Source: Synechococcus sp. UW140 (lineage in GTDB: Bacteria; Cyanobacteriota; Cyanobacteriia; PCC-6307; Cyanobiaceae). From it: a stretch of 64,000 nucleotides of DNA. The position numbers were made by a program, and so were the translations under genes. Every line of letters begins with the position of its first letter. Positions within the stretch are counted from its first letter, which is position 1. The DNA lies in NCBI GenBank assembly GCA_945875915.1, contig CAMCMT010000009.1:1-64000 (forward strand). Reading direction: 5' to 3'. A model generated the notes under the pieces. The model saw only the letters and a list, made by a program, of their open reading frames with translations. It ran no database searches and had not been told where the DNA came from. Below are positions 7,746 through 47,892 of this stretch, piece by piece.

Positions 7746-7877
7746 AGCCAATCTGCTCCAACAATGGGGCCGAGAAATCCCCTGTCAACAGATGCCTCGC
7801 AATGCTGAAAGATTCATGAAGACACAGACGAATTTCACTTTTCTGTAGCAGGTTGGACTAACTTCTACCCCCACTCC

Positions 7878-8813
7878 ATGACCCCCTCTGGCCCGCCCGA
7901 CAGCGGCGGCCCTCGCCGCCGCAGCAGTGATCCGATCACCTGGTATCTCGGCACCATCGGACGTGTGCCTTTGCTGACACCAGCCGAAGAGATTGAACTC
8001 GGGAATCAGGTGCAAATCATGATGCGGCTCTTGGAGGAGCCTAAGGATGGGGGCTATAGCGATCAGGAAAATAAATTAATTCGGGTTGGCCGCCGCTGCA
8101 AAGAGCGCATGATGAAGGCGAATCTTCGCCTTGTTGTCAGTGTCGCCAAGAAATATCAGGGTAAAGGCCTCGAACTCCTCGACCTAATCCAGGAGGGGTC
8201 CCTGGGCCTAGAGCGGGCTGTTGAAAAATTCGATCCCACCCGGGGCTACAAGTTTTCGACCTACGCCTTCTGGTGGATTCGCCAGAGCATGACCCGGGCG
8301 ATTGCCTGCCAATCACGGACGATCCGGCTGCCGGTGCACCTGTCCGAACGGCTCTCGGCGATTCGCAGGGTGAGCCTAGATCTTGCCCACAAACTCGGGG
8401 CGATGCCTAGTCGCCAGGAAATTTCCGAAGCCATGGCCATGCCAATCGAGGAGCTCGATTCGCTGCTGCGCCAGTCACTCACTACTTCCAGCCTTGATGC
8501 GCCGGTCAACGGTGATGACGATCGCAGCTTTTTAGGCGACCTGATTGCCGATACCAGCCACAGCGAACCCCTGGAGTCGGTCGAGCGGGGCATCCACCTG
8601 GAACAGCTGGGCCAATGGCTCGGCCAGCTTTCGGAGCAGGAGCGCCAGGTGCTGGAAATGCGTTTTGGCCTAGAGGGCCATGATCGTCACACCCTGGCCG
8701 AAATTGGCCGACTCCTCGATGTCTCCCGGGAGCGGGTGCGGCAGGTGGAACTCAAGGCCCTGCGCAAGCTGCGCCAATTCACCCGCCGAAGCCCCTCCCT
8801 CAAGGGTCCCTAG
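7878..8813 (+). CDS. Group 2 RNA polymerase sigma-70 factor
   Basis: A 311-aa primary-like sigma factor. Region 1.2 (DPITWYLGTIGRVPLLTPAEE), region 2 with the -10-recognition helix (KFDPTRGYKFSTYAFWWIRQ), region 3 (RLPVHLSERL) and region 4 (GLEGHDRHTLAEIGRLLDVSRERVRQ) are all present. It lacks the long N-terminal region 1.1 extension of SigA, so it is a non-essential group 2 factor of the SigB/C/D/E type, used in cyanobacteria for light, stress or nutrient responses; I cannot say which. The 132-bp gap upstream should hold its own promoter. Confidence 0.92.
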   Translation: MTPSGPPDSGGPRRRSSDPITWYLGTIGRVPLLTPAEEIELGNQVQIMMRLLEEPKDGGYSDQENKLIRVGRRCKERMMKANLRLVVSVAKKYQGKGLELLDLIQEGSLGLERAVEKFDPTRGYKFSTYAFWWIRQSMTRAIACQSRTIRLPVHLSERLSAIRRVSLDLAHKLGAMPSRQEISEAMAMPIEELDSLLRQSLTTSSLDAPVNGDDDRSFLGDLIADTSHSEPLESVERGIHLEQLGQWLGQLSEQERQVLEMRFGLEGHDRHTLAEIGRLLDVSRERVRQVELKALRKLRQFTRRSPSLKGP

Positions 8814-8870: not shown

Positions 8871-9998
8871 TCAGTCGTCGGCCCAGATGTAGCGGGTCAA
8901 TTCAGCCGGGTCGGGCTCGGGGGCTGCGAGCGCGAACTCAACACAATCGGCCACATGGACATCGATCTCCTTTTCGATCTGCTTGAGATCGGCTTCGCTA
9001 GCCAGTTGCTGCTCGAGCAGGTGGCCAGCTAGACGCTTGATTGGATCGCGCTGGGCCCAGAACTGCTTCTCGGCCTCAGCCCGCAGCTCATCGGGGTCGG
9101 CAAGGGAGTGGCCCCGGAAGCGATAGGTGAGGCACTCGAGCACGGTGGGACCCTCTCCCGCCCTGGCCCGCTCAATCGCCCGCTGGGCCGCTGCCCGCAC
9201 GGCTAGCACATCCATGCCGTCCACCTCTTCGCCGGCCATGCCGAAGGCAGCAGCTTTGCGCCATATCTCTGGGTCACTGGTGGCCCGGTTGTGGTCCATG
9301 CCGATGGCCCACTTATTGTTTTCCACCACGAAAAGAATCGGCAGCTTCCAGAGAGCCGCCATGTTTAAACATTCATAAAACTGGCCAATATTGCAGGTGC
9401 CATCGCCAAAAAAGGCCGCCGTGACAGCATCGCTGCTGGCATCTCCGAGGGCATCGCGCTTATAGCGACTGGTGAAGGCAGAGCCAAGGGCCACGGGGAT
9501 GCCTTCACCGATGAAGGCATAACCACCAAGCAGGTGATGTTCCTTGGAAAAGAGGTGCATGGAGCCGCCCCGGCCCTTGCTACAGCCGGTTTCCTTACCA
9601 AACAGCTCACTCATGACCTCCCGAGCCGGCACTCCGCAACTCAGGGCATGGACGTGGTCGCGGTAGGTGCTGCAGAACCAATCGTGTTGCAATTTCATTG
9701 CCCGGATCACGCCGGTACTCACCGCTTCCTGGCCGTTATAAAGATGTACGAAACCAAACATCTTGCCGCGGTAATACATCTCGGCGCACTTGTCTTCAAA
9801 GCGGCGCCCAAGGGTCATGTCGCGGTAGAGCATTAGGCCCTCCTCGCGAGTCACCGTTGCTGGGGTTGCGGGGTAGAGGGCTGAAAGCCGCTCGGCGTGG
9901 CTGCCGGCGGCGGCGGCTTGCTCACTGGCGGATAGGTCACTGGCACCTGGGCCACCGGCCTGAGGGGCCGCAATTCCCGTTGTTAACTCAGCCGTCAT
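8871..9998 (-). CDS. pdhA: Pyruvate dehydrogenase E1 component, alpha subunit
   Basis: Thiamine-diphosphate-dependent decarboxylation of pyruvate as part of the PDH complex that makes acetyl-CoA. The 375-aa product has the ThDP-binding motif from [10 protein letters not shown] to [10 protein letters not shown], the [13 protein letters not shown] active-site region, and [18 protein letters not shown] with [15 protein letters not shown], which includes the phosphorylation-loop region of E1 alpha. Start ATG 9996-9998 gives an N-terminal tail of about 40 residues that is Ala/Gly-rich and probably disordered. The beta subunit is not in the window, as is usual in cyanobacteria where the subunits are scattered. 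Divergent from ftn2 across 130 bp. Confidence 0.95.
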
Positions 9999-10128
9999 CG
10001 CCTAAGGGCCTGAAGCGTTTAGCGACTGTACGGGGTCCAAAGGCCCCTAATGGTTCCAAGAGCGGCCAAAATTACAGACCCAGCCTAAACACAGCTGCTT
10101 ACAGTCAGTCGTCAGCGAAGCTCCTGGC

Positions 10129-20558: not shown

Positions 20559-23500
20559 TCACTGAACGATAGAAAACGAGAAGCCAAACACCAAATCGTC
20601 AAAGTCACGGTCGCCGCCACCACTCAAATCCTCAAGGCCAAACATGTTGTTGCCCAACACCCTGAAGTGATTAAAGCGATCGATATTAGCATCGCCAAAG
20701 GCAAAGAACGTATCACCATTGACCCTGGCGAAGGGGGCCAGATAGGTTGACTCACTGACTTCAACAACACGGCTACTGGTCTGACCATTAGCAACGGCGA
20801 GACCAGAAAGCTCCGAGACAAGATTTTCAATTCTAAGGGCAGCATTCATATACTCAGCAACGGAAGCGACACCAGGGGTTAACAAGTCTCCATTGGCATC
20901 TAAAACCGAACCAAGGGTGTCAACAGTACGGTAGAAACCAGTAATCGAATCATAGGATGCCTCCCGGGCGAGGACGAGGGTACCCGTAACTTTTTCTGTC
21001 GGCTTAAAGGAACTAAAATCGAGCAAAGATGCAGAGCCCTGCTCTTGAGCGACCAAGGCATTGAGCCCTTGGTCACTCGAGAGAAGGGAGAGATTGAATT
21101 GAACACCACTCAACGACGTGACCGCTAAAGCCTGGGCTGAAGGGATACCCATTGAGAGGAAATGGAATCGACTGTCATTGGGGCTAGTGATCTCATCAAG
21201 GGTGGCATCAGACACCTCAAAGAAACGAACACTCTGACCATTAACCAACAAGATCTCACGATCGAAGATGGTAAAGTCATTCAGGGTGACGTCCTCACGT
21301 TCAAGCGTCGAGAAGAGCGTCTGGGCCCTTGTTGTCACCGTGGTCCAGTTGGACAGCAGGCTATCAGCGATAGCGAGCTCAGAGGCTTCCAAGACCACGT
21401 AACCAATCTGATTAGAGGTGGATGGGCGGCCTGAAAGGCTGGCCCTAAGAACCAGGCTGGCAGGAGCGGTTGCATTGGCTGGGTCACTAACCGTCAGCGT
21501 GTTGGCATTGGCACGGCTGAGAATGGGATTGATGTCAACCGTGGCTGCGGTGGATGGGTCAAGAATCGAGCCATTCACCTTGTGGTCCTTATCGCCGTAG
21601 CCACCATCGACCAGGGCAAGGGAAAGAAACTCAGCAACACCATCTCCATCGCGATCATAGAAACGGGCACCTGCACGCTTTAGCGGGTTATAGGTCAGCG
21701 TCGATACGACGTTAGGATCTGCACTGTCAATTGAGAAGTAGGCAAGACGTCGGTTAGCACGCCTAACACCCTGATCATCAACCAAATCAAGACTACCACC
21801 AACGACACTCAGATCCAAGGCCGTATTCAAGGACTTTGTAGCAGACTTACTGAGTTGGGCCGTAAACTGTACGGCCTCGGCATTTAAATGATAATCAGAA
21901 GAACGTCCCCCAATCACCGCACCCAGATTGGGTAAAAGCGACTGAAAATCAACTTTGGTTAGCTTAAACAGCTTGGGATCAAAACTGCCATTACCAACGC
22001 GTAAATCCCTAGAGCGAATGGTAACCTCAGCGGCCTGGCCAAACGGGCTCGTGTGCGCCAAATCAGAATAGAGTTGGATATGCAGCACTTCATCTCGTTC
22101 AGCGGTCAAGTCATTAGCCACATCGATGGCAATCGTTATTTTACCGTCGGTATTAACCTTACCTGAGCCGTCTAGGGCGCCATCAATAAAATCATCTGCC
22201 GAAATCCCGTTACCACTAAAGCGCCAATAAAGGGTGCTGTTGGGTGCCAGGTTGGTGGCCACATGGATGGAAAGAGTTGCACCTTCATTGATCGTGGGGT
22301 CGTGGATCAATAGGGCAGCCTGCTGATTGGTAAGACTGTTGTGCTTCGTCAGCAAGAGTTGGGGCAAGGACGTTTGCGAAGGGTCTAGGCTCTCGCCCGT
22401 GAGAACGGACCCCACCCGGCGCAACACAATCGCTGGAGAGGTATCAGGTTGGAACTCACCACTGCCAACGGGCAAGGTAAAGAAAGGTAGGGAAACGAGC
22501 CGTCTACCGCCGTCATCGGTGGTGGCAGAAAAAGAAGAATCGAGGCGCAAGCGCAATAAGCCATCACGACCAGTGCCAAGGTCGCCAGTGTATTCAAGTA
22601 CATGGAGGCCAGCAATGGCATTTAATTGGTCAGTATCGAACCAAACCTCATTGGAAGGAAACACCAACTCAAGATCAATCAGGCCCAACTTGTTGCGGTC
22701 CTGACCATAAAGCCAAAGCTGTAATTGCAGGTCCTGGCCCGAAGCCACCGGATTGATCACACGAGATGTGGTGATCTGATCAGCCGCAAAGGTTACACCG
22801 GAAAGAGGTTGAGCAAAAGGCAGCAGGGTCGCGGTCGACTCCTTGCCCTGGGCATCAACAAGGCTGAAATAGAAGCTGTAGGGCAACACACGACTCGAGA
22901 CCGCTTGGCTCTTGGCCAATTGGAACTCAGGTGTTTGCGGATAGGGAATCGTGATATCAGTGGAAACGCTAGCAACATTACCGGAGGAATCCTGCAAACC
23001 AGTGTCCGAATCAAATAGCAAGCGATAGCTAGATCCAGGCAGCACAGTCAGGCCCGCGATTAAATCCGTAAAATTAAAGAGGACTGTGCTGGAATTAAAT
23101 GGATCAAGACCAGCAGTCGGGGTTGAAGAGGGTTGAATCTCGGCAACTTGATCAATCGCTCCCGTAATTGGATTCACCACAGCAAAGCGAACCCTGCCAA
23201 GGGAGTGAACATCCTCGGAAAACTCGAGCTGTAAGGTCACCGAGGCGTCCTTCACGGTAAAGGCTTGGCTCAACAGTTTGGGGGGTGCTGAGTCGTACTT
23301 GATCCCGTACTGGAGCGCTGGCAACGCCAAAGCCAGTCCATCGCGATTACGAAGCAGATCGCCACGACCACCTAGATCCACGGCTAGGTAACCCTGAACG
23401 TTGGTCGGACGCTCAACAGTAAGTGTCAGAGAGAGACCATCGGCCGAAAGCTGAACCCCAGAATCAGCGAAAGAAGGATCAATCTCCTTAACCACAGTGA

Positions 23501-41500: not shown

Positions 41501-44500
41501 CTGTAACGACCGGCTCCACAGCATCAATCAACAGGTTCTTGTTATTTGCCAATGAGCCTATTATTTCAGCTCCTACGGGCAGGGTCAAAACAGCATTGGT
41601 ATTATTACTACCCTTAATGCTGACCCCTTCAGCCAGTTGCAGGGCCGATGCTGAAAACACATCCAAATCAGCGCTTTTATCACCGCTCTGAACAGTATAA
41701 ATGAAAGTTAGAGTTTTCTTATCATCACTTGTCGAGCTATAATTTGCGGTGCGATCGCTCGCTCCAGTCTCAAGCTTTAGGCTGGGGCTGCCAGTGACAG
41801 TGACTGCTTCTGAGAAGCTGACCTGGATCGCGATGGTATTCCCATGCCTGAAGGTTCCGTTGCCATTACTAGCAGTCACCCCCGTCACAACCGGCACAAC
41901 ACCATCAATAACTAAGTTCTTATTATTTGCCAATGAGCCAGCTGTTTCAGCTCCTACCGGCAGCGTCAAGACCGCATCAGTGTTATTAACACCCTTGATA
42001 GTGGCGCCATCGGTAAGTTGTAGAGCAGACGCTGAAAAAACATCCAGATCAGCGCTGGCATCACCACTCTGGACCGCATAAATGAACGTCAATGTTTTTT
42101 TATCTTCACTGATAGAGCTATAAGTAGCCGTGCGATCGTTCGCTCCAGTTTCTAGCTTTAGACTGGGACTGCCTGCCACAGTGACTGCTTGTGAGAAGCT
42201 TACCTGGATCGCGAGGGCTTCACCAACATTAAATGTTCCGTTGTGACTGCCTGCAGTCACCCCCGTGACAAGTGGCGCCACACCATCAATCACCAGGTTC
42301 TTATTATTTGACAATGAGCCTGGAGTTTCAGCTCCTACAGGCAGAGTAAGATCTACTGGAGTGCCACCAGCATTTTTAATAGTGGCACCCTCGATGAGCA
42401 CCAATGCCGAGGCTGATCGAACATCGAGGTCGGCGGCCTGTTCACCAGCTTTTACTTTATAGAGAAAAGAAAGGGTATCCCCTTCAACAACAGCACTGGA
42501 TACATATTCAGTGCCGTCCCCTACATTTAGACGCAAACCGACTTGGCCTTCAACATTGACAGGCTCCGAGAACTTTATATTGATCGTTAATATTTGATTG
42601 GCTACATATGTTCCGTCGGCTTCGGCAGCGAACACACTTAAAACATGGGGAGCATCATTGGCGACCGGAAGACTCCATAACTCCTGTCCTGCTTTTCCGT
42701 CATCCGCAAGGAACAACATTTTATCTCCAAAATCAATAAGCTTGAAGGGATAGCTACCTGAGGATCCGCTAAGGATATCCTCAACGCGAAAGGTACCTGC
42801 TTCAGTGCCATCACTTTGCCAAAGCTCATTTCCATTGGTGCCATCACTAGCCGTAAAAAACAGTGTGTTGCCCATGGCAGTGAAATTTGAGGCATAGCTG
42901 CCTAGGGAGCCACTCCCAATGTCCTTGACGAGAGCTGTGCCGGCCTCAGTGCCATCCGTTTTCCATAGCTCCTTTCCATTGGTGCCATCGTTAGCGGTAA
43001 AAAATAGTGTGTTGCCTATGGCAGTAAAATTAGTGGCATAACTGCCTGAAGAACCAGTTCGAATATTTTTGACGCTGACTGTGCTTGCTTCGTTACCATC
43101 CGTTTTCCATAGCTCATTTCCACTGATGCCATCGTTGGCAGTAAAGAAGACAGTATTTCCAATGACAGTGAAATTGGAGACAGAGCTTCCCGAGGAGCCA
43201 ATTCGAATATCCTTGACATGGACAGTCCCTGCCTCTGTACCATCGGATTTCCAAATCTCACTTCCACTGATGCCATCATTTGCAGTGAAGTAGATAGTCT
43301 TGTCAACAGTAATGAACTTATCCGACCAGCCAATCGCCCCATCGGAGCCCATTTTAATATCTTTGACTCGGAGCGTGCCAGATTCGGTACCATCAGTTTT
43401 CCAAAGTTCCTTCCCAACCGTGCCATCATCTACGGTAAAGAAGAGGGTTTCTCCTAGCACAAAAAACTTTTCTGGATAGCTGCCTGAGGATCCACTTCGA
43501 ATATCCTTGAGGCGTGACGTGCCCGTTTCCGTGCCATCGCTTTTCCATAACTCTGTTCCACTTATACCGTCGTTTGCAGTAAAATAGAGAGTTTTCCCTA
43601 CTGCGATAAAATTGTAGGCATTACTACCTGCGTTCCCACTCCGAATGTCCTTGACACGGACTGTGCCGGAGTCAGTGCCATCGGTTATCCAAAGCTCTCT
43701 TCCGCTTGTCCCGTCATCTGCGGCAAAGAACAGCGAATTGCCTACCGCAAGGAAATTGGAAGCATTGCTGCCAGCAGATCCACTCAAAATGTCCTTGACA
43801 CGAACTGTACCAGCTTCAGTTCCATCCGTTTTCCATAGTTCATTTCCACTGGTTCCATCATCAGCAGTAAAGAAGCATTTACCATTTAGCACTACATAGT
43901 TAGACAGATTACTAGATAACGTGTTGCGATTAATTTTCTTGGGAATAACTGTGCCCGCTTCTGTGCCATCGGTTTTCCATAGCGACTTACCATTGGTACC
44001 ATCGTTGGCAGTAAAAAATAGAGTATTTCCTATGACAATCAAATTGGAGGCGTAGCTACCTAGATTCCCAGTCCGAATGTCATTGACACGGACTGTGCCA
44101 CTTTCGGTACCATCCGTTTTCCAAAGCTCCTTCCCACGGGTGTCGTCATACGCAGTAAAAAAGAGGGTGTTACCTATAGCAGTTAGATAGGATGCATAGC
44201 TGCCAGTAGAGCCACTACGAATGTCCTTAACGCGCACTGTGCCAGCATCAGTACCATCACTTTTCCACAGCTCATTTCCATTGACGCCGTCGGTGGCGGT
44301 AAAGAAGAGTGTGTTGCCTATAGCAGTGAAATTTGATGCATTGCTACCTAAAGAACCACTAAGAATGTCCTTTACTAGGAAGGTTCCAGCGCTAGTGCCA
44401 TCAGTTTTCCATAGCTCCGTTCCGCTTGTACCGTCGTATGCCTTAAAAAACAGTGTTTGTCCGACTGTAATGAAATTAGAAGGATAACTGTTTGAGGATC

Positions 44501-45485
44501 CACTGCTAATGTCCTTAACTAAACTTGTGCCTGCTTCGGTGCCATCGGTTTTCCATAACTCAGTTCCACTTGTGCCATCGTTGGCAATAAAGAAGACAGT
44601 ATTTCCTATGACAGTTAAATTGGAGGCATAGCTGCCTGAGGAGCCGCTTCTAATGTCCTTGACAAGTACAGTGCCTGCGTCAGTGCCATCCGTTTTCCAA
44701 AGCTCGGTTCCATGCGTATCATCGTTGGCGGTAAAGAAGAGCGTGGTGCCATTAGAAATCAAATCATGGATATAACTGCTGTATTTGCCACTACGGATGT
44801 CCTTGACGCGAACTGTACCGGCATCGGTGCCATCGGTTTTCCATAGCTCTTGGCCACTTGAGCCATCATCTGCGATAAAGAAGAGGATATTGCCTACTTT
44901 AATGAAATTGGAAACATTGCTGCTCGCACTCCCGCCACTGATATCCTTAACTTGGGTAGTGCCATCATCAGTGCCATCAGATTTCCATAGCTCCGTTCCG
45001 CTTGTGCCGTCATTGGCTGTAAAAAAAAGCGTATTGCCTACCGCAATAAAATTTGATTTGGATCCAAAGCTGGGGGGAAATGGAAAGCCATTATTCGAAC
45101 CAAAGGCGCCACTAGACCCTTTGAAAATATCCTTAACTTGAACCGTGCCTGTTTTAGTGCCATTGGTTTTCCATAGTTCATTTCCACTGGTGCCGTCATT
45201 AGCTGTAAAAAAAAGCGTATTGCCGACCGCAATGAAGCTTGATTGGGATCCATCGCTGGGGGGAAATGGGAAGCCATTATTCGAACCAAAGGCGCCACTA
45301 GAGCCGATGAAGATGTCCTTAACCAGCACCGTGCCTATTTCGGTACCATCGGTTTCCCAGAGCTCCGTTCCGTTTGCGCCGTCATTGGCCGTAAAGAAAA
45401 GCGTATTCCCTAGGGCAATGAAGCTCGAGGGGTTGCTGTCTTGAAGATTGGTATTGATGTCCTTGAGGAGCTTGGGGGTAGCCAT
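20559..45485 (-). CDS. Giant multidomain repeat protein, probable secreted surface protein (8308 aa)
   Basis: One uninterrupted reading frame of 8308 codons from ATG 45483-45485. Segments in order (residues approximate): 1-944, ELWxxDGT repeats, 18 full and one truncated; 944-1450, four ~126-residue units of the SwmB/Big-like type (NGTF..G..LAIQVSFSEAVTV, then GDxSADLDVxSASAL and LTLPVG); 1980-2030, a VCBS-like piece (GSVTINDTGAWTYNLD); 2040-2200, a block sharing PGNxYxxGKLxVIExxD with a second block at 5900-6100; 4250-4340, 6740-6840 and 7725-7810, Calx-beta-like segments (GTDYKLNGF, GEDYRLNGF, EGATLSIHV); 4530-5810, about 16 beta-rich units of ~80 residues; 7040-7200, cadherin-like with DPDGDGIDA; 8190-8308, a DUF4114-like end with GGGDRDFDDLVF. 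There is no N-terminal signal peptide and no RTX nonapeptide run, which fits type I secretion by a C-terminal signal (inference). Giant proteins of this style in marine Synechococcus (SwmB) act at the cell surface in swimming and grazing resistance; the role here is unknown. Base composition is clearly lower in G+C than in neighbours. Confidence 0.93.
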   Translation of the reverse strand: MATPKLLKDINTNLQDSNPSSFIALGNTLFFTANDGANGTELWETDGTEIGTVLVKDIFIGSSGAFGSNNGFPFPPSDGSQSSFIAVGNTLFFTANDGTSGNELWKTNGTKTGTVQVKDIFKGSSGAFGSNNGFPFPPSFGSKSNFIAVGNTLFFTANDGTSGTELWKSDGTDDGTTQVKDISGGSASSNVSNFIKVGNILFFIADDGSSGQELWKTDGTDAGTVRVKDIRSGKYSSYIHDLISNGTTLFFTANDDTHGTELWKTDGTDAGTVLVKDIRSGSSGSYASNLTVIGNTVFFIANDGTSGTELWKTDGTEAGTSLVKDISSGSSNSYPSNFITVGQTLFFKAYDGTSGTELWKTDGTSAGTFLVKDILSGSLGSNASNFTAIGNTLFFTATDGVNGNELWKSDGTDAGTVRVKDIRSGSTGSYASYLTAIGNTLFFTAYDDTRGKELWKTDGTESGTVRVNDIRTGNLGSYASNLIVIGNTLFFTANDGTNGKSLWKTDGTEAGTVIPKKINRNTLSSNLSNYVVLNGKCFFTADDGTSGNELWKTDGTEAGTVRVKDILSGSAGSNASNFLAVGNSLFFAADDGTSGRELWITDGTDSGTVRVKDIRSGNAGSNAYNFIAVGKTLYFTANDGISGTELWKSDGTETGTSRLKDIRSGSSGSYPEKFFVLGETLFFTVDDGTVGKELWKTDGTESGTLRVKDIKMGSDGAIGWSDKFITVDKTIYFTANDGISGSEIWKSDGTEAGTVHVKDIRIGSSGSSVSNFTVIGNTVFFTANDGISGNELWKTDGNEASTVSVKNIRTGSSGSYATNFTAIGNTLFFTANDGTNGKELWKTDGTEAGTALVKDIGSGSLGSYASNFTAMGNTLFFTASDGTNGNELWQSDGTEAGTFRVEDILSGSSGSYPFKLIDFGDKMLFLADDGKAGQELWSLPVANDAPHVLSVFAAEADGTYVANQILTINIKFSEPVNVEGQVGLRLNVGDGTEYVSSAVVEGDTLSFLYKVKAGEQAADLDVRSASALVLIEGATIKNAGGTPVDLTLPVGAETPGSLSNNKNLVIDGVAPLVTGVTAGSHNGTFNVGEALAIQVSFSQAVTVAGSPSLKLETGANDRTATYSSISEDKKTLTFIYAVQSGDASADLDVFSASALQLTDGATIKGVNNTDAVLTLPVGAETAGSLANNKNLVIDGVVPVVTGVTASNGNGTFRHGNTIAIQVSFSEAVTVTGSPSLKLETGASDRTANYSSTSDDKKTLTFIYTVQSGDKSADLDVFSASALQLAEGVSIKGSNNTNAVLTLPVGAEIIGSLANNKNLLIDAVEPVVTGLTASIANGTFKLGSTLAIQVIFSDAVTVTGSPLLKLETGVNDRTALYSSISEDRKSLTFTYTVQSGDSSADLDVASAAALQLTEGATIKGVNNTNAVLTLPVGTTTTGSLANAKSLVIDGTPLFVSNQIELLSYGPYEKITTNGKTSYRFLSKTELNLKLLGGDTLRVNASQLTVENGLIQTLQGTATGTGAYGLSQLQLASLGIDRGASSQSISGTAKLGSQSVSLSGDLKLEANNQYSFLPVTVSGANLASLLPETGHLQDLSNTKLGFVGNVAGTNLVLSGSTDARFDLRPDQADISTPYPVSLTNLGLDSNQKVNSFKLTPKNQAPWPIKLAGATISANSETITYSLIPASEGKLAQQVFTVDLNGTLTPDGGDSLTVDGQITYRYSVPASGAPTLLPVSAHFDILNTTPFSIGGTRFKTSGGLKLDYQEDANRSAAILALNGEAKIDLEVIKGLPVQLGSPTLNFSDLLASADLAGKALPATNGWSLGQLKEATTGRKEDLGLATISKVALTSGDLRPKFYDPVQNIPAFENGAGPTLKQLSGSLGLFTITPIATAYTDQFKVFGLDGKPISTVVLDLVPSSTNSAAPQISLKRQEILTNKERLDLYAAYVEKESASGDVTLTAILDQTKSQEIDSFSKYFKAGTQKTDFGSVTINDTGAWTYNLDTSNSTLAPVSGGYTIVPRVNTQTGLIANLSNVELQLNAVLVGLRPEADAILDLLDSFGIRKFVKTLEKEVDLPSYEPLRNTLLKLFESVPGNAYADGKLQVIEIIDTLYYTATRLNKKSSKGYVALTPTIKGLGKVIGFAEGVIAQTWKSSGRTADQYFYTNSLFRDEKDGTPYQFDNILLDLVYHNDNTANPGYTWLDDAIVSRVGKLPEKVNLSTLYDDLLEQIQAQNSYRKYLKSKGAGQEEQAAGDSTFSVSLDSQPLFAPTEFINRYLTEDQLDLLRLDLALDIAVNAEVSYPLFPLVSALFGATLNVELLLNIISRLSRDQLNTLILSINVVKADASLSDTAKQSAVDKLIASAFSNSLSTDLSADKFKIGIEPYVGIQLGFPLLNITGKMGLAVDFTVGFERLLNGELADDQTVSLADFFGKSAGTKSPYAYNPKFESLNFTLDHNYDFLLAKSPTDKSGFADFRTAYAQNSWLFNIYFEPINLKALIGESKLAFDVSLLKKLGNKLITSFDWVNIVDERIVTAGGIDLLFKDAKYLNSPVSSAFNAALKRQYPKLTDKERARLLSLVIDNASPTRITYALADTQKIDQRINELQSSYVVRAARDIGSPSLSKDKFRYRYDTVDAENAVDVYSYYSLYAPKYIDIKPKLAYNFVEVQIDLISTGAKVNTDLQFFDGSRWQTLGSLQDDLKGAAKVTMATTSPGIVMNYDETAKANPGHYVHNAGTLSLQLSLAHLSRSDANPQEKLLKQLAEAGQLQLRLFDETTSGVGEDTTFMSDPRIMRGGSIYTKRVDSGNILRQDNVVAWNQNLVSGAVQWISPSFFRPLSDQPDLAFLNQQESTRSQKIGQYLNPTAPLAIQFAGQQLSARPSSHSSASQSGTLSDAVDGTIRFTRDPITSLTYKSYIGSDRHVRVAVRSAADQDWVDVANLADLALSPTETQAPDLVAINGEVVLASWDANGNLLRYSIKLPTTAGSQVQISSAAIEHETLARVILQGTGPTNRLESAQQPSLRSNTDLRIGLEKRLDLNSTSSLNQAFYLSVVDPIQQVYATSAKPLSMTINNYTPGSAAQTLTQAANAWIGTAQSSPLKKHLSALLGFNEYSNSGVFSGTGANSTGNIGVITAADFIEYNSTADMANHLAEWGSGSLFVASSSAIGNGEAMIWNYDGDAYTRNNQDRLKPEGVTSSGRVYSMNGLTPDSLSVVYRNLDQKDIFTSNWAGLVDQSLSPYSQVGNKPMRTAALHDRDSLVAGGNLAILATGKALNFGLLNQPFASADQLGARADQGYALTDGTDVVRYFSPERFSGNDGLNYWYDASNVAPLNLQSYQVGGLDPAHAATAALNSSGAVSGLGWAWLPARQLSDGQLESLIRTSGLSFIDSHSLNLVIGSATNEFAANGQIHLNPASIQLLPSSQTPELFLGSQASGSAKANNFSILAGPRSEVGVVLTANELKSPSWFTGDSSLTSYDLIGSLFAGSRPFLYRGDYVPLAYYNEGDNTYYGNLNAPVLASADQAFNPASFQLPKTANAVTPIGFEGSISDYVSFGVDQAHSKDILSLIKTMPAVVPAGYFRMVDPAGANLNPGTVVHAPMVPMRSTASNKQLIYADLSPTSSRQSPLYVASSNPVQVSLGRNEPPSVILQRMEMVGTYVPGIDSIDKFAAYAWNDAQLKYSLLDDALPVDAFGNAADWLAEFRRRYAGLEIPRSIEFVSQNTPQLVNNTLFTPVAANGEIGSYLNLPYANSNALDQINLTTTIESTLKLSAEVNALFLSFNVASLDIPLHKPYVKSWKIASLTGGPLAGTFDLFFDENRDLSRNSSEISDQGVASTLQLDLSSRASKILLDTSLETANLWNGTDYQPKYQNGSPDWRSGLLVIRPASNGSAVDVMTGLANTSTYLSRLEANVADTHWESIKNSVLLDYIPYSAKNITSIDKSRWFTDRSSLTKLVPSEIAAAFTSAFVLPTGLDAELSDPIHVYDAFGAADAVSKPNLLNLYSFENRMMAISTLIREIYKQAAIDSSQLESPNAPAGYDPEIYAYQVIPYFALTLAGKTDPYYRKLLTLIAESIGGKNGSLALRLEQSGYKFNPTNSDDLALLLGYAQLTMPSTNQNLTFYNGRLDLTYTAGISDSLAKMRLKTVASSLSDYLDAFDLVASKQFSLDPRLITTAVSGLKRQILAPAGVIAEAASAIVNQQPPTISPVDPKLLTQPVTPESFTLINQMIRDSSDQSTQVIPGVAGLARSLVVDQVYKTTEDGIYEFNLRLSQPAPSGGALFLLNYDGSAVYGTDYKLNGFASRPDYLYVPAGETSQSFKIDVSASQLTSSLLIHLAAASADYQISSGFDRMLFEIDAGKAQLLEQQDKVVFRQFSNQIQVPLGESIFTPSELIKQAGTNDIRIVGSQPKLTDRHVTVNAYQAKLNPSNIRFAAQAPNDAEVTGGWGLIGKNLYRAHAGDWGAVDIYELRNQASGIYTYVNSLSEYQILQAQGWLGNGVAFSFDEDHSLPLRISSVPAASPPLSLPGLDLQAISGYLDTYEYAANQDISEWRFLGKISGLKFKDSFTLDGAIMVRHRQDYADETWWIDADVLGFDLPNLATISTGVGTAKANGHLNLRISNGQLNQWQIQADVNDFKLTDDLSLSGSLDLYYENSKATQNKSRYRASGRVKDFDFSTPGFQLQNLDVSLTDFLLNDGKVLSWSLATSVQDLLIGDQFRVSGSLNLSYLTDNLGSHLQGDAALKSFNLDLGSGVGLDVAAGTIEFAVDNGKLATASLDLQQAKLKINQSNILNFTTGFLDLSQTNGNPDSFDLEATLTASKLGPLTIDHGLASIHYKRSFVPGTASAHHELSLGLTKSDLSLDLGSSVGVQTLKGVTAAVNLLDGSIVGYQLAASEINLQLGPNIHAKGSFSLLNEAVGSDVYTHAAIKANQLSLSVPNALSFAGSAGLEFTIKNQALTTLKLSALAKNVTIAGFALDGNLDLQLDHFVNGTPEDIRLSAGIQNFNLGLASSPTTTLTGEVQDLTIHKGEVQQWTLIGAINDFAIANQFKANGFARLNYTKKEQNKTLTGSVGVTDFKLLLPAGPSQASINGQLDFNLVNDQLQRWKLIGGIDKLKLVDGIEISGELSMEYLDQVYPDNPYKQDVFLLDATLKQASFKLTDDVTLKLDGSLSDLTFNGTGDVLAWKLKSSVRDLELFDGFKISGNLDLKYKFDAGVKIFDGAAEVTGVSLPVPGLSNPSQGMTGKLAFQTRNNELQQWTLTADVDQLNLFNDITITGHVEIGRTLSNPIQNRLKASVQSMKLALGTGIEASLSGQMDLAYKTYDGSIYPIEQTLTFQATRAQLSIANLFSVDGSADVKYSQALNGQKDFSMTAKVNAFNLVIPGGSPVVLKGDLSVDLRDSVLQSFKLNSSVSSLKLGLFELDGNIEVAYALPAAPTETTAGSPATEGIYSLRGDFTNLSLKSPDPNGGSLTLDKGLVALRYGNQSGILDWNLAASIRNWKLFDDFVLSGAAQIYYTKKNQFETYTIKASVDTFKLDLGFSSEPLSLSGKFALVTTNGELDQWSLAASVQNLNLLGFSLDGDIDLDYQKRNASLYNQTTFIVSKASIGVDVLGGYFAGTSVNVSVSELVLVEQQGRQWQAMSWQASAKLAIGNEASTIQLKSTLDISYLHQDPLFGFKDTLTMSGAVKDFRITSDYFSVHDVDLILEKLVVVGGEASPRSLKFNGRINDLNIANIFAMSGSFSGLFDNSKGLDFDVQGSIDRLRIAGFDLFDYLSISSGEVSASSKGSRLDVNLTAKFKNDSKISIGGFDLAFKDTSATIQFTKLNDNDAGKLSFSAQGLMELGSAHTPVSGGFSASIDLATGKPSLDDLTLSLTPDDKPADYGIFKLDAPSSLRYKNGEIKLILDPSVNADIFNGFSAPIYDSVNSIRPAVEPVIDLLTTQIPNDFATAEQSIVIPSIKLPTLQQTGTRRGLFGLTFPVYSVVLKEVVPEFKKVIIPTLDIGAALTNFIESYPGNPYKNGKLEVIELLDGLGATFFYVNQKLAQAGLFSDAFEPYISIFGKKAYTMAYPSISPIVGTVDTLLGMTELATKQPSLPGWVRLDPFSLVYNINTGKLDVKGPALGDIASKFGAFGDLYDFTNNTLAATGSGSLDGNFKSVGFVNSSSFKVPILDNPAKAILDVILDKPVDVFEYNLDLSASLKARGSVDLGSWVAALIGVPIPLILGANPGLDVNLDTTVGFTASPKSLKALAADVQALLSGQGKFDDILKTVITGITEPNTGVYLDISNDLLTLKPELSVDLSLDYKVLGLRGQIGLSSTLSAALDLLGNGAPDRIYLNNLVRPLFDPDFKKNRTPYDLVLALKPGKTTVWFDILAKVASPWFSVFRLQSDLPIPKISLQIPLGTVYTGPTYGPTSLYFQPKLKLQDGSSHPDLVTDFYSGFADQQGLFDRIAGSITADQPQGVLYVAPSPWSRDVLTGIPRSLALFDQVSSTDPTPDVLNVSTSLDSTAALMQSYATTVTASSSTASVLEQLTGYSSSFSTSQSSYQLLNSDSVDVRRVGLAQLQFEYQLQAVLIAIQDLLRAHDVLAYRPAGYGDDLPQDEALWPYMFLQHYLSHGLKASAPGSALVHLDLQDARSLKALFVDVETRIGNPSTTLAGFTASAIAALNREMVTRSNLGDALDGPALLAPLAITGLKQIFQGHSLEMALDLLQQQPNQEDALLASWISTFALAHSSQTADTYASVAWRAADAGHFSLQLSHAATEAGAFVNVLLRSSLVYGEDYRLNGFERQPVQLFIVPGSDHLDLQFEWLKSDLPTSSVDLTILASHSGLQPDPNRSGLHVTVTGTTALASVQSFTVNQLASDTTVLNANAQGVFTLATQSTPYVLMGFDRSAGHRLAIANGATANAVPLSLDQLTIINGVLYAGPRAIGVVLAETLGQPGTLAYADNLGSASHGRIALRLPGQTLVEDQSQPLKLSLAALLQQANRQGQTLVNLSTTARLQVQLDQGEIMLHADPDFAGSGALLLTLANGEGVQSVVEVPITVISQVDPLRRLQPLSLQVDEDSSVELPFSSFTDGILDVDHFAPVTFESLSGPNGSPAPVSIEVNRTDQSVLIRPAADLHGEQTLTLTVSSHGVASNFDVKLTINPINDGARPESLDLALAADGTHVFSVDDFPFLDPDGDGIDAIHITQAPYGGSLRWLNNPGNPLTASLLFDPVTQPFVTLDQLRAGQLIYQADPAERYPERFQNYGWLVDVLGYQLVQNLSTQPILSSLSTLILTDERPDEGLLSPPQITNHTIDIEGKRLKAHFSFDQPLYFDGHSLRLLGANDAAAPSSVTVVKEIDPSFADSGVQLSADGLSLTLTVERPTNVQGYLAVDLGGRGDLLRNRDGLALALPALQYGIKYDSAPPKLLSQAFTVKDASVTLQLEFSEDVHSLGRVRFAVVNPITGAIDQVAEIQPSSTPTAGLDPFNSSTVLFNFTDLIAGLTVLPGSSYRLLFDSDTGLQDSSGNVASVSTDITIPYPQTPEFQLAKSQAVSSRVLPYSFYFSLVDAQGKESTATLLPFAQPLSGVTFAADQITTSRVINPVASGQDLQLQLWLYGQDRNKLGLIDLELVFPSNEVWFDTDQLNAIAGLHVLEYTGDLGTGRDGLLRLRLDSSFSATTDDGGRRLVSLPFFTLPVGSGEFQPDTSPAIVLRRVGSVLTGESLDPSQTSLPQLLLTKHNSLTNQQAALLIHDPTINEGATLSIHVATNLAPNSTLYWRFSGNGISADDFIDGALDGSGKVNTDGKITIAIDVANDLTAERDEVLHIQLYSDLAHTSPFGQAAEVTIRSRDLRVGNGSFDPKLFKLTKVDFQSLLPNLGAVIGGRSSDYHLNAEAVQFTAQLSKSATKSLNTALDLSVVGGSLDLVDDQGVRRANRRLAYFSIDSADPNVVSTLTYNPLKRAGARFYDRDGDGVAEFLSLALVDGGYGDKDHKVNGSILDPSTAATVDINPILSRANANTLTVSDPANATAPASLVLRASLSGRPSTSNQIGYVVLEASELAIADSLLSNWTTVTTRAQTLFSTLEREDVTLNDFTIFDREILLVNGQSVRFFEVSDATLDEITSPNDSRFHFLSMGIPSAQALAVTSLSGVQFNLSLLSSDQGLNALVAQEQGSASLLDFSSFKPTEKVTGTLVLAREASYDSITGFYRTVDTLGSVLDANGDLLTPGVASVAEYMNAALRIENLVSELSGLAVANGQTSSRVVEVSESTYLAPFARVNGDTFFAFGDANIDRFNHFRVLGNNMFGLEDLSGGGDRDFDDLVFGFSFSIVQ
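28050..31900 (-). repeat. Beta-rich ~80-residue repeats in the giant protein
   Basis: About 16 degenerate units covering roughly residues 4530-5810. Each has a pattern close to GxLxxWxLxAxVxxLxLxxxFxLxGxLxLxY followed by LxAxVxxxxLxLG. Conserved are one Trp, the LDG/LSG turn and alternating hydrophobic residues, suggesting a long solenoid or beta-groove. Unit edges are approximate because they were read by eye. Confidence 0.7.
41135..42650 (-). repeat. Four SwmB-type/Ig-like repeats in the giant protein
   Basis: Four consecutive units of about 126 residues (378 bp). Units 2-4 are very similar, with VTGVTAxxxNGTF, FSxAVTVxGSPxLKLETG, DRTAxYSS, TVQSGDxSADLDV and IKGxNNTxAVLTLPVG; the first is more diverged (VLSVFAAEADGTY). 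The type is known from long bacterial surface proteins, including the swm repeat of Synechococcus. Confidence 0.9.
42675..45365 (-). repeat. ELWxxDGT repeat array at the N terminus of the giant protein
   Basis: Eighteen complete copies of ELW-x-x-DGT-x-x-GT-x-x-VKDI, plus a truncated last copy reading ELWSLPVAND. The regular period is 48 residues (144 bp); the first two units are 62 residues (186 bp) because both carry the insert AFGSNNGFPFPPS, and their DNA is nearly identical (ggatcc at 45060 and again at 45246), which points to a recent duplication. One unit has SLWKTDGT followed by a divergent VIPKKINRN. Confidence 0.95.
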
Positions 45486-45535
45486 GAATCGTTCTCAAAT
45501 CAATTGATAGTGGTTTAACAGGAAATGAATTCTGT

Positions 45536-46618
45536 TTATTCTTGTTCGTTGATTGGCGGTACGAGCCAAATTGTTTGTTGTTGATCAATTTCCGTATTGG
45601 GACCAACGATGACAGGATTGCTCCACCCAGGCAGAAAGGAAACCCCAAAGATTTCCTCAACGCCACTGTTGAACCACAGCCAGGCGACCACCTCGCGGTC
45701 ACCTAAATGAACTAGGGCAATGCCACATTTGCGATCCGAATGGCGGTCCTCGAGGGGTAGGCCCCCGAACACCGCTGATTCGCGGATCTGCGAAACCCCC
45801 ACAACGGCGAGGTCACCCCAACAATCAAGACCTCGGGTGAAACCCGGTAATTCGGCGATGGATTCACTCACGTCTTGAAAGGGCACCGCCGTGGGGCCAT
45901 TGAGATCGGCCGGGTCGGTCTGCATCAGCCTGCCTTCTCCGGAATGGAGCCAAAGCAACTGCTGATTGTGTAGACGGGGGGAATGGGGCATCGCCATGCC
46001 CTCCATCACCACCCGGTTGGCTTGGATATCGATCAAGCAGCCGCCGGTGGTTTTGCTGGCACGCCAGCTGTCGAGGCTGTCGCCAGCGCCCAGGGCCGTG
46101 GCATAGGCCGGGGAATTACCACTGGCGTTGAGGGCCAGGCCATTGAGATGGCAACGGTCTTCAGGTGCCAAAGCACTGATGAACGGGGGGCGCCATTGGG
46201 GGGTGAAGCTCCAAGGGCCGCCGACCGTGGCCAGACAGTTGAACAAGGTGTTGACCAGCAGGAGCTCCCTGTTGCACCAGGCCAGGTCATGGGCCAGCAC
46301 CGGTCCGGTGAGGTGACAGCTTCGGGCTAGGAAGGCGATGTCATGGCCAGCATCCGGGGTAATGCGGCTGGCAATCTCCCTGTTGGCCTCCAACTTCCAA
46401 ACTTGCTCTTGGCTGCACACCGCCAGACCGCTTGGGGTACGGGTGAGACCCATCGCTTGGGGGACGTGGCTGAAGCCAACCTTCAACTCGCCGCTCCTGC
46501 TGCCAATCGAAACAAGGCGACCGGCCTGATAGGTGCTCACAACGATTGACAGCTGCAGCTGTTCGATCAGCCCAGGTAAGTTTGTGCTGTATTCGTATTC
46601 GACGTTGGTTCGCTTCAT
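45536..46618 (-). CDS. TIGR03032-family protein
   Basis: A 360-aa protein starting MKRTNVEYEYSTNLPGLIEQL. The family outline is clear: STYQAGRLVSIG near residue 30, LARSCHLTGPVLAHDLAW near 100, LVNTLFNCLAT ... PPFISALAPEDRCHLNGLAL near 120-160, and WxxSGEGRL and ELPGFTRGLD later. The family (also indexed, I believe, as DUF4915) is uncharacterised, with a propeller-like pattern of short beta motifs. No signal peptide or membrane span is visible. It lies 50 bp upstream of the giant gene in the same direction and is probably its first operon partner; I infer a role in making, modifying or exporting the giant protein. Confidence 0.88.
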   Translation of the reverse strand: MKRTNVEYEYSTNLPGLIEQLQLSIVVSTYQAGRLVSIGSRSGELKVGFSHVPQAMGLTRTPSGLAVCSQEQVWKLEANREIASRITPDAGHDIAFLARSCHLTGPVLAHDLAWCNRELLLVNTLFNCLATVGGPWSFTPQWRPPFISALAPEDRCHLNGLALNASGNSPAYATALGAGDSLDSWRASKTTGGCLIDIQANRVVMEGMAMPHSPRLHNQQLLWLHSGEGRLMQTDPADLNGPTAVPFQDVSESIAELPGFTRGLDCWGDLAVVGVSQIRESAVFGGLPLEDRHSDRKCGIALVHLGDREVVAWLWFNSGVEEIFGVSFLPGWSNPVIVGPNTEIDQQQTIWLVPPINEQE

Positions 46619-47049
46619 CTCAAAACGGTTTGATGGGATTGACTAGGGCCACGAACTGACTCTTTCTGTGGGGGCAACAGAACCACAACGGAATTAGCCA
46701 GCCAGCGAAGGGACTCCATGACTGACACCTAATTACTGACAGCTAACTGGTGAGCCGCTTGCACGGGTTCGGTCTCACCATGCGTTGTGCCAAGGTGCCG
46801 TTTGATGGGTTCGAAAGCATGGACCGAGGAAGGACGCTGCCTCGACCTGTTTGGGGCTGATTCGCTCCTAGGGCCTTAGGGCGGTGAAAGGCTTCGGCGT
46901 GGGCGGCCGACTCCCGCCTGGCGCAGGCAAACGGGGTTTCCCCCGGGGCGCATGCCAAGGGCACCAACCAGTCGACTAACTTCCTGAATCATTAGTTTCA
47001 ATTTGAATTGATTGCTTATTTTGCGGCAGGAACAGGGCGTTTGTCTTAC
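46619..47049. other. Intergenic region upstream of the TIGR03032-giant gene pair
   Basis: 431 bp between the end of the LuxR-type regulator gene and the start of the TIGR03032 gene, both on the minus strand. No convincing gene is present. It should hold the promoter of the giant gene cluster. Visible but unproven features: an imperfect 14-bp direct repeat (ACTGACACCTAATT and ACTGACAGCTAACT, about 46720-46748), and an A/T-rich stretch around 46985-47025. Composition changes from G+C-rich to A/T-rich across it. Confidence 0.5.
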
Positions 47050-47892
47050 TCAAATGGGTGAGGGCGAGGCATTATTGCCGTTTTCAGGGGCCTGGTCTGC
47101 GGCGAGGGTGCGGAGGCTGCCCACGGCCAGGGCGGCGTCGGCCCGGGCCACGGCGGGCAGGTTCGGGGGTTGCAGTAGGCCCAACTGCAACAGAATCAGC
47201 ACCGCATGGCTGCGGTTGTTGATGCCCAGCTCGCGGTAGGCCGCTTTGAGCTGGTGGCGCACCGTGTCAAAGGGCATGGCCAGCTCAGCGGCAATCTCCC
47301 GGTCGGTGAGGCCATGGAGCACCAGCTGCAGGATCGTCAACTGCTTGACGCTCAGCTGGGGATCCCAGCCCCGGCCGCCTTGCTCTAACAGCCGCCCTAG
47401 GCCTGGATCGAGAAAGGGCTCGCCCCGCAGGAGGCTTTCAACTGCCATCAGCACATGGCCTTCCTGGACCAGCCCATCGGTTAACACCCCCAGGGCCCCA
47501 GATCGGAGCGCGGCCCGCAGCCGCGGCAGGCTCACCCGCTTGAGCACCAGCAAGATCGGCAGCTCGGGCCAGCGCTGGTGGGCCTGGCTCACCAACTCCA
47601 GCCCATCCCCATCCTCCAATTGATCGGTGGTGATGAGAAGCTCGGGCCCGTGGCTGGCACAGAGCTCGAGGGCTTCGGCTGCGGTCGTGACCGCCCCCAC
47701 CAGGGCGCCGGTTTCGTCCCGGCCCGCGGGCCGAATGCCGCGGTGGCGCATCACAAAGCAGCATTGGGCTCTGACTAGGGCCATCGCCTCGAAATGGGAG
47801 CCGGTGGCAATCACATAGCGCAGGTTGGTTAGGAGTTCATCGAATCGGTCTTGATCGTGGCGGATTCGATAGAACACATCAAGGGCATCCAT
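47050..47892 (-). CDS. NarL/LuxR-type response regulator
   Basis: A 280-aa transcription regulator. Residues ~30-150 form a receiver-like domain whose probable phosphorylated Asp lies in LLITTDQLEDGDGLELV; the other acidic-pocket residues are not obvious, so it may be atypical. A LuxR helix-turn-helix follows (LSVKQLTILQLVLHGLTDREIAAEL, then DTVRHQLKAAYRELGINNRSHAV). A Leu/Ala-rich tail of 35 residues ends it. It stands directly upstream of, and codirectional with, the TIGR03032-giant pair and divergent from an MFS gene, so either may be its target; no sensor kinase is near. Confidence 0.85.
   Translation of the reverse strand: MDALDVFYRIRHDQDRFDELLTNLRYVIATGSHFEAMALVRAQCCFVMRHRGIRPAGRDETGALVGAVTTAAEALELCASHGPELLITTDQLEDGDGLELVSQAHQRWPELPILLVLKRVSLPRLRAALRSGALGVLTDGLVQEGHVLMAVESLLRGEPFLDPGLGRLLEQGGRGWDPQLSVKQLTILQLVLHGLTDREIAAELAMPFDTVRHQLKAAYRELGINNRSHAVLILLQLGLLQPPNLPAVARADAALAVGSLRTLAADQAPENGNNASPSPI

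Follow-up and report, generated by a model that had tools for sequence, protein, structure and literature searches.

Among described systems, a close parallel to the gene pair reported here is HMW1C, a GT41 enzyme that acts in the cytoplasm as third partner of the large HMW1 adhesin, which it glycosylates (PMC3983070). HMW1 itself uses two-partner secretion. The parallel lies in a partner gene accompanying a large exported protein, as the giant of our pair would also be, and in the GT41 domains that are fused or adjacent to other copies of the family TIGR03032. However, HMW1C has a GT41 domain, whereas the TIGR03032 protein of the window (the whole stretch of 64,000 nucleotides from Synechococcus sp. 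UW140 that was analyzed) is a predicted propeller without one and is therefore not a member of the HMW1C family. Among very long picocyanobacterial proteins, the giant encoded in the window is comparable in length to SwmB, a giant exoprotein of marine Synechococcus (10,791 amino acids [aa]; PMC4949707). TIGR03032/DUF4915 is given no function in curated libraries, and no papers naming TIGR03032, DUF4915, ELWxxDGT, PF16261 or TIGR04534 were found in open-access full text, a search that left subscription journals largely outside. The family and the repeats are already known to curators; what we believe to be new is the specificity of the pairing for one subgroup, together with the enzymes found around the family, both described below.

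A TIGR03032 gene upstream of a giant repeat-protein gene

The TIGR03032/DUF4915 gene of the window (45536-46618, minus strand) encodes 360 aa from an ATG start, without a fused domain. Membership of its product in the family was confirmed by passing both curated cutoffs (TIGR03032: 361.1 bits versus a cutoff of 251.5, E = 4.8 × 10−108, profile positions 2-331 of 335; PF16261/DUF4915: 349.5 bits versus a cutoff of 35), and DUF4915 was its only Pfam match at E ≤ 0.1, with neither GT41 nor PF05935 detected. On the same strand follows the giant open reading frame (ORF) (20559-45485, minus strand, 8308 aa). The coordinates agree with an earlier note on this DNA that had placed the TIGR03032 gene 50 bp upstream of the giant, except that position 45486, which it gave as the start of the feature, marks the start of the gap (45486-45535, minus strand, 50 bp), the TIGR03032 gene beginning at 45536. 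Its claim that no terminator separates the pair also held: a consensus scan of 45300-47100 called no terminator-like or promoter-like sites on the minus strand, and predicted folding of 45486-45535 was not better than that of shuffled sequence (z = −0.43). The lack of a called terminator or promoter is consistent with co-transcription of the two genes.

GC content is 50.1% in the giant and 58.7% in the TIGR03032 gene, versus 65-66% in both flanks, which contain housekeeping genes (trmD and era in one flank, ispF and larB in the opposite one). We read the pair, from composition and gene content, as a probable two-gene accessory block amid housekeeping genes. A LuxR/response-regulator-like gene (47050-47892, minus strand), 431 bp upstream of the TIGR03032 gene, is a possible regulator of the unit, with its membership uncertain because its GC content matches that of the flanks. 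A strict motif pattern for LuxR-like ORFs gave matches in 0 of 124 loci, and since it also missed the window's own LuxR-like gene, the pattern is too narrow to decide the matter.

The N-terminal ∼940 residues of the giant consist of ELWxxDGT repeats (42732-45407, minus strand, 18 repeats), recognized as 18 TIGR04534 stretches scoring 1123.7 bits in all, above the cutoff. At the C terminus lies a DUF4114 (PF13448) match (20577-20735, minus strand; residues 3551-3603 of the second of two pieces scanned), and no RTX family match was found in either piece. The repeats and the C-terminal DUF4114 match suggest that the giant may be secreted. Its last ∼460 residues (20571-21950, residues ∼7846-8305) are 43-48% identical to parts of ORFs in two other genomes (G215 and G178), as if they belonged to a shared C-terminal module.

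Predicted fold and invariant residues

An AlphaFold2 model of the TIGR03032 protein, built on 54 sequences (mean pLDDT 92.1, pTM 0.91), confidently predicts a six-bladed beta-propeller, with the blade count read from its strand list and from the folds that it matched. Its closest counterparts among solved structures are the YWTD propellers of nidogen (Z = 23.6), LRP4 and LRP6, and the structural matches at Z of ∼20 include the propeller enzymes lactonase RPA3624, PAL and strictosidine synthase. The model thus has the same fold as YWTD/NHL-type six-bladed propellers (Z of 23.6 to ∼20, 219-254 residues aligned) but differs from them in sequence, with 7-15% identity, and no solved sequence relative was found (best E = 0.09). 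For the ELWxxDGT region of the giant, the prediction was also all-beta, each repeat comprising several strands, and propeller folds were matched (pLDDT 77.5, pTM 0.54), so this region is predicted to be propeller-like, with lower confidence than for the TIGR03032 model.

Across 128 TIGR03032 domains, drawn from all three groups of the family, T29, Y30, H110, D154, C156, H157, N159, W185, R186, H212, R262 and E322 are invariant where present; H110, H157, N159, W185, R186, H212, R262 and E322 are invariant in all of 125-128 domains, and the window copy carries H110, D154, C156, H157, N159, W185, R186, H212, R262 and E322. In the strand list of the model, H110, H157, H212, R262 and E322 fall in successive blades, each where the innermost strand begins or directly beside that point. 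We take the invariant residues as forming a predicted pocket at the propeller axis, resembling an active or binding site. No N-terminal signal sequence was obvious by eye in the window protein, which would place it in the cytoplasm.

Arylsulfate sulfotransferase (ASST; PF05935) is likewise a propeller, and ASST structure 4p04 was in the Foldseek list for the model (TM 0.54). The order of the H, HxN, R and H motifs in TIGR03032 appears to resemble that of the ASST catalytic residues. Profile comparison (hhalign) with eight ASST-like proteins gave a probability of 0.9%; with so small and heterogeneous an ASST alignment, homology was thereby rejected at the level of sequence only. PF05935 had no hit in the window's own genome.

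Genomic neighborhoods of TIGR03032 genes

To survey the neighborhoods, stretches around 45 TIGR03032 copies in genomes from the family search were combined with the best 80 of 580 relative-encoding stretches retrieved with an alignment of 21 domains as query; the latter were chosen for their resemblance to the window protein, irrespective of their neighbors. The window protein alone as query had found no related loci. Removal of one duplicate (L111) left 124 stretches. Downstream neighbors were defined as ORFs on the same strand within 450 bp (n = 64), and 841 non-adjacent ORFs from the same stretches served as background. Repeat proteins identified by motif counts (ELWxxDGT, FG-GAP, RTX) made up 17/64 downstream neighbors versus 10/841 background ORFs (Fisher P = 1.6 × 10−14), a contrast that is conservative because several background repeat genes sit two genes from TIGR03032, and that is to be read with simple in-house gene calls, many partners cut by contig ends, and related loci that are non-independent. 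ELWxxDGT proteins alone accounted for 11/64 versus 3/841 (P = 2.9 × 10−11), ORFs of at least 1000 aa for 15/64 versus 21/841 (P = 1.9 × 10−9), and those of at least 2000 aa for 4/64 versus 2/841 (P = 3 × 10−4). A library scan of 62 downstream neighbors, in which one protein may have several matches and counts therefore overlap, returned TIGR04534 (11), FG-GAP (8), FG-GAP_3 (7), choice-of-anchor Q (7), Calx-beta (4) and RTX nonapeptides (3). The pairing is not local chance, and it recurs in distant bacteria.

The enrichment for large repeat proteins bears out in part the link between TIGR03032 and its outsized neighbor drawn in the earlier note. The dedicated relation that it proposed stands for ELWxxDGT proteins with one TIGR03032 subgroup and fails as a rule for genes of >3000 codons: downstream partners of that size were found only in the window, G222 and L156, with many others cut by contig ends.

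A subgroup of TIGR03032 paired with ELWxxDGT proteins

A quick maximum-likelihood tree of the 128 domains divided the family in three. The window copy belongs to a group with a core of 37 rows (support 98) and members from Cyanobacteria, Planctomycetota and Nocardioides. Copies in the second group come nearly all from cyanobacterial genomes and lie beside FG-GAP-type proteins and glycosyltransferases, and the third contains many fusions to TPR. TIGR03032 is a recurrent, subgroup-specific neighbor of ELWxxDGT repeat proteins: an ELWxxDGT gene lay within 1 kb of 21/37 core rows of the window group versus 2/91 other rows (P = 4 × 10−12). One of those two is the second TIGR03032 gene next to the same ELWxxDGT gene in L187. 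At that locus (L187:2902-11035), an ELWxxDGT gene of 1879 aa sits between two TIGR03032 genes on the same strand.

The association extended to whole genomes. Counted over 50 of 79 loci in 48 genomes, with L155 placed in the window group, ELWxxDGT matches occurred in 20/22 genomes with a window-group copy versus 3/26 with other copies. Where window-group copies had no adjacent ELWxxDGT gene, one was present elsewhere in the genome in 12/15 cases (binomial P = 7 × 10−9, against a background of 13% that comes from Planctomycetota only). A set of 388 cyanobacterial genomes sampled later yielded 20 stretches, of which three that repeated earlier loci were left out; here, an ELWxxDGT gene lay within 4 kb of 3/5 window-group copies versus 0/12 others (P = 0.015).

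The coupling runs in one direction only: in Cyanobiaceae, most ELWxxDGT genes lack an adjacent TIGR03032. No TIGR03032 gene was found in 28 further Cyanobiaceae stretches with ELWxxDGT genes (0/28, five of which end within the repeat gene, short of its start; two more genomes with ELWxxDGT matches, G313 and G319, fall outside the 28), which indicates that TIGR03032 is dispensable for the class of ELWxxDGT proteins as a whole. Adjacency in this family is found in the window's genome (G000), G062, G103 and G178, and also in G222, where the giant shows only a weak repeat match. TIGR03032 is patchy in Cyanobiaceae, exceeding the cutoff in 29/400 genomes; some match was present in 16/31 ELWxxDGT genomes versus 35/399 overall, figures that include fragments and are hard to read because genome size confounds them. 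Co-occurrence of TIGR03032 and ELWxxDGT as a family-wide rule was rejected, as 199 Planctomycetota genomes with 14 and 26 carriers, respectively, had two in common, which is chance level, and omission of the center genome, one of the two, gave a Fisher P of 1.0. In both shared genomes, the TIGR03032 and ELWxxDGT genes are adjacent. Across 12 Planctomycetota stretches fetched, an ELWxxDGT neighbor was seen in G575 alone, with the G425 locus being L113, already counted. In G222 (L093), a TIGR03032 gene cut to its C-terminal half (9421-10101) lies ahead of a giant that resembles that of the window (40% identity over 1873 columns); unless the truncation is a sequencing error, the giant can outlast TIGR03032.

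Modifying enzymes around TIGR03032 relatives

Long TIGR03032 proteins (n = 49) carry fused TPR (24), GNAT (14), GT9-like (11), GT41 (6) and Sulfotransfer_3 (4) domains. In three loci, Asp_Arg_Hydrox (Asp/Asn beta-hydroxylase), Sulfotransfer_3 and TIGR03032 are joined in single ORFs (L170:7916-11143, L179:7904-11053 and L182:2174-5089). The title of the L179 contig assigns it to a Klebsiella pneumoniae metagenome bin, a label that may be wrong. GT41 was also present in 9/38 same-strand upstream neighbors of TIGR03032.

No modifying enzyme was found fused to or near the TIGR03032 gene of the window, and no glycosyltransferase was among the named neighbors of the pair. Elsewhere in the same genome, a decayed second cluster (contig C34, 188-5244; L107), with all genes on one strand, contains an FG-GAP repeat ORF, a TPR-GT41 gene interrupted by a frameshift, ∼80 remaining residues of a TIGR03032 domain and a GT2-like ORF; the frameshifted copy is the only GT41 found in the genome.

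Possible roles of the TIGR03032 protein

We favor, with a probability of roughly 0.45, a role for the TIGR03032 protein in the cytoplasm, as a partner in the maturation of the large repeat protein encoded next to it. It would recognize or bind the nascent repeat protein in the cytoplasm and take part in modifying its side chains (by glycosylation, sulfation or hydroxylation), with export to follow. The modifying enzymes would be those fused to TIGR03032 or encoded alongside it in relatives, and the window protein, which stands alone, would work unaided or together with an enzyme whose gene lies elsewhere; HMW1C as third partner is the working analogy. Participation in modification is suggested by the fused or adjacent enzymes, most types of which are capable of acting on side chains. 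Where the earlier note had proposed a dedicated role in folding, modification or export, the fused enzyme domains would favor modification over export.

The same pairing might arise if the protein were a dedicated chaperone or fold template, its propeller holding or nucleating the propeller-like repeats of the partner in the cytoplasm until export, without chemistry. Such a role fits two partners that are both predicted to be all-beta and propeller-type, partner repeats (ELWxxDGT, FG-GAP) that track TIGR03032 subgroups and a window copy without an enzyme domain, but we consider it unlikely, as invariant His, Asn, Arg and Glu residues at the predicted pocket exceed the needs of a scaffold and relatives carry fused enzyme domains, with the caveat that a ligand-binding adaptor would show both as well. 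The glycosyltransferases that adjoin many TIGR03032 copies could instead point to an enzyme acting on small molecules or on glycans of the cell surface, as could the structural matches to lactonase, PAL and strictosidine synthase, which are six-bladed propeller enzymes. The repeat protein would then be a second product, made in parallel from one and the same surface cluster. The pairing tracks the repeat family across phyla, however, and the window pair lacks a glycosyltransferase among its named neighbors, so that such an enzyme would come as something of a surprise.

Mere co-transfer of accessory island genes without functional coupling appears quite improbable. The GC content of the pair is below that of its flanks, TIGR03032 is patchily distributed in the family and the copies in G001 and G005, of the same genus, fall in other clades, all of which would suit genes that travel together; yet the link holds across phyla and in differing orientations, and subgroup copies without an adjacent ELWxxDGT gene mostly have one in the same genome.

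Returning to maturation of the repeat protein, we hold a more detailed version as tentative and rather doubtful in its full extent. TIGR03032 would be a propeller-type module that modifies large repeat proteins post-translationally, with subgroups matched to ELWxxDGT or FG-GAP. Its invariant pocket would have catalytic activity of its own, perhaps that of a transferase, and the module would be connected, depending on the lineage, to glycosyl-, sulfo- and acetyltransferases and Asp/Asn hydroxylases. The link to named repeat families and modifying enzymes gives the uncharacterized TIGR03032 family a testable function and offers an approach to the question of how surface proteins thousands of residues long are made ready by bacteria. 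Synechococcus elongatus, included as a control genome, has a TIGR03032 match and so provides a tractable laboratory species.
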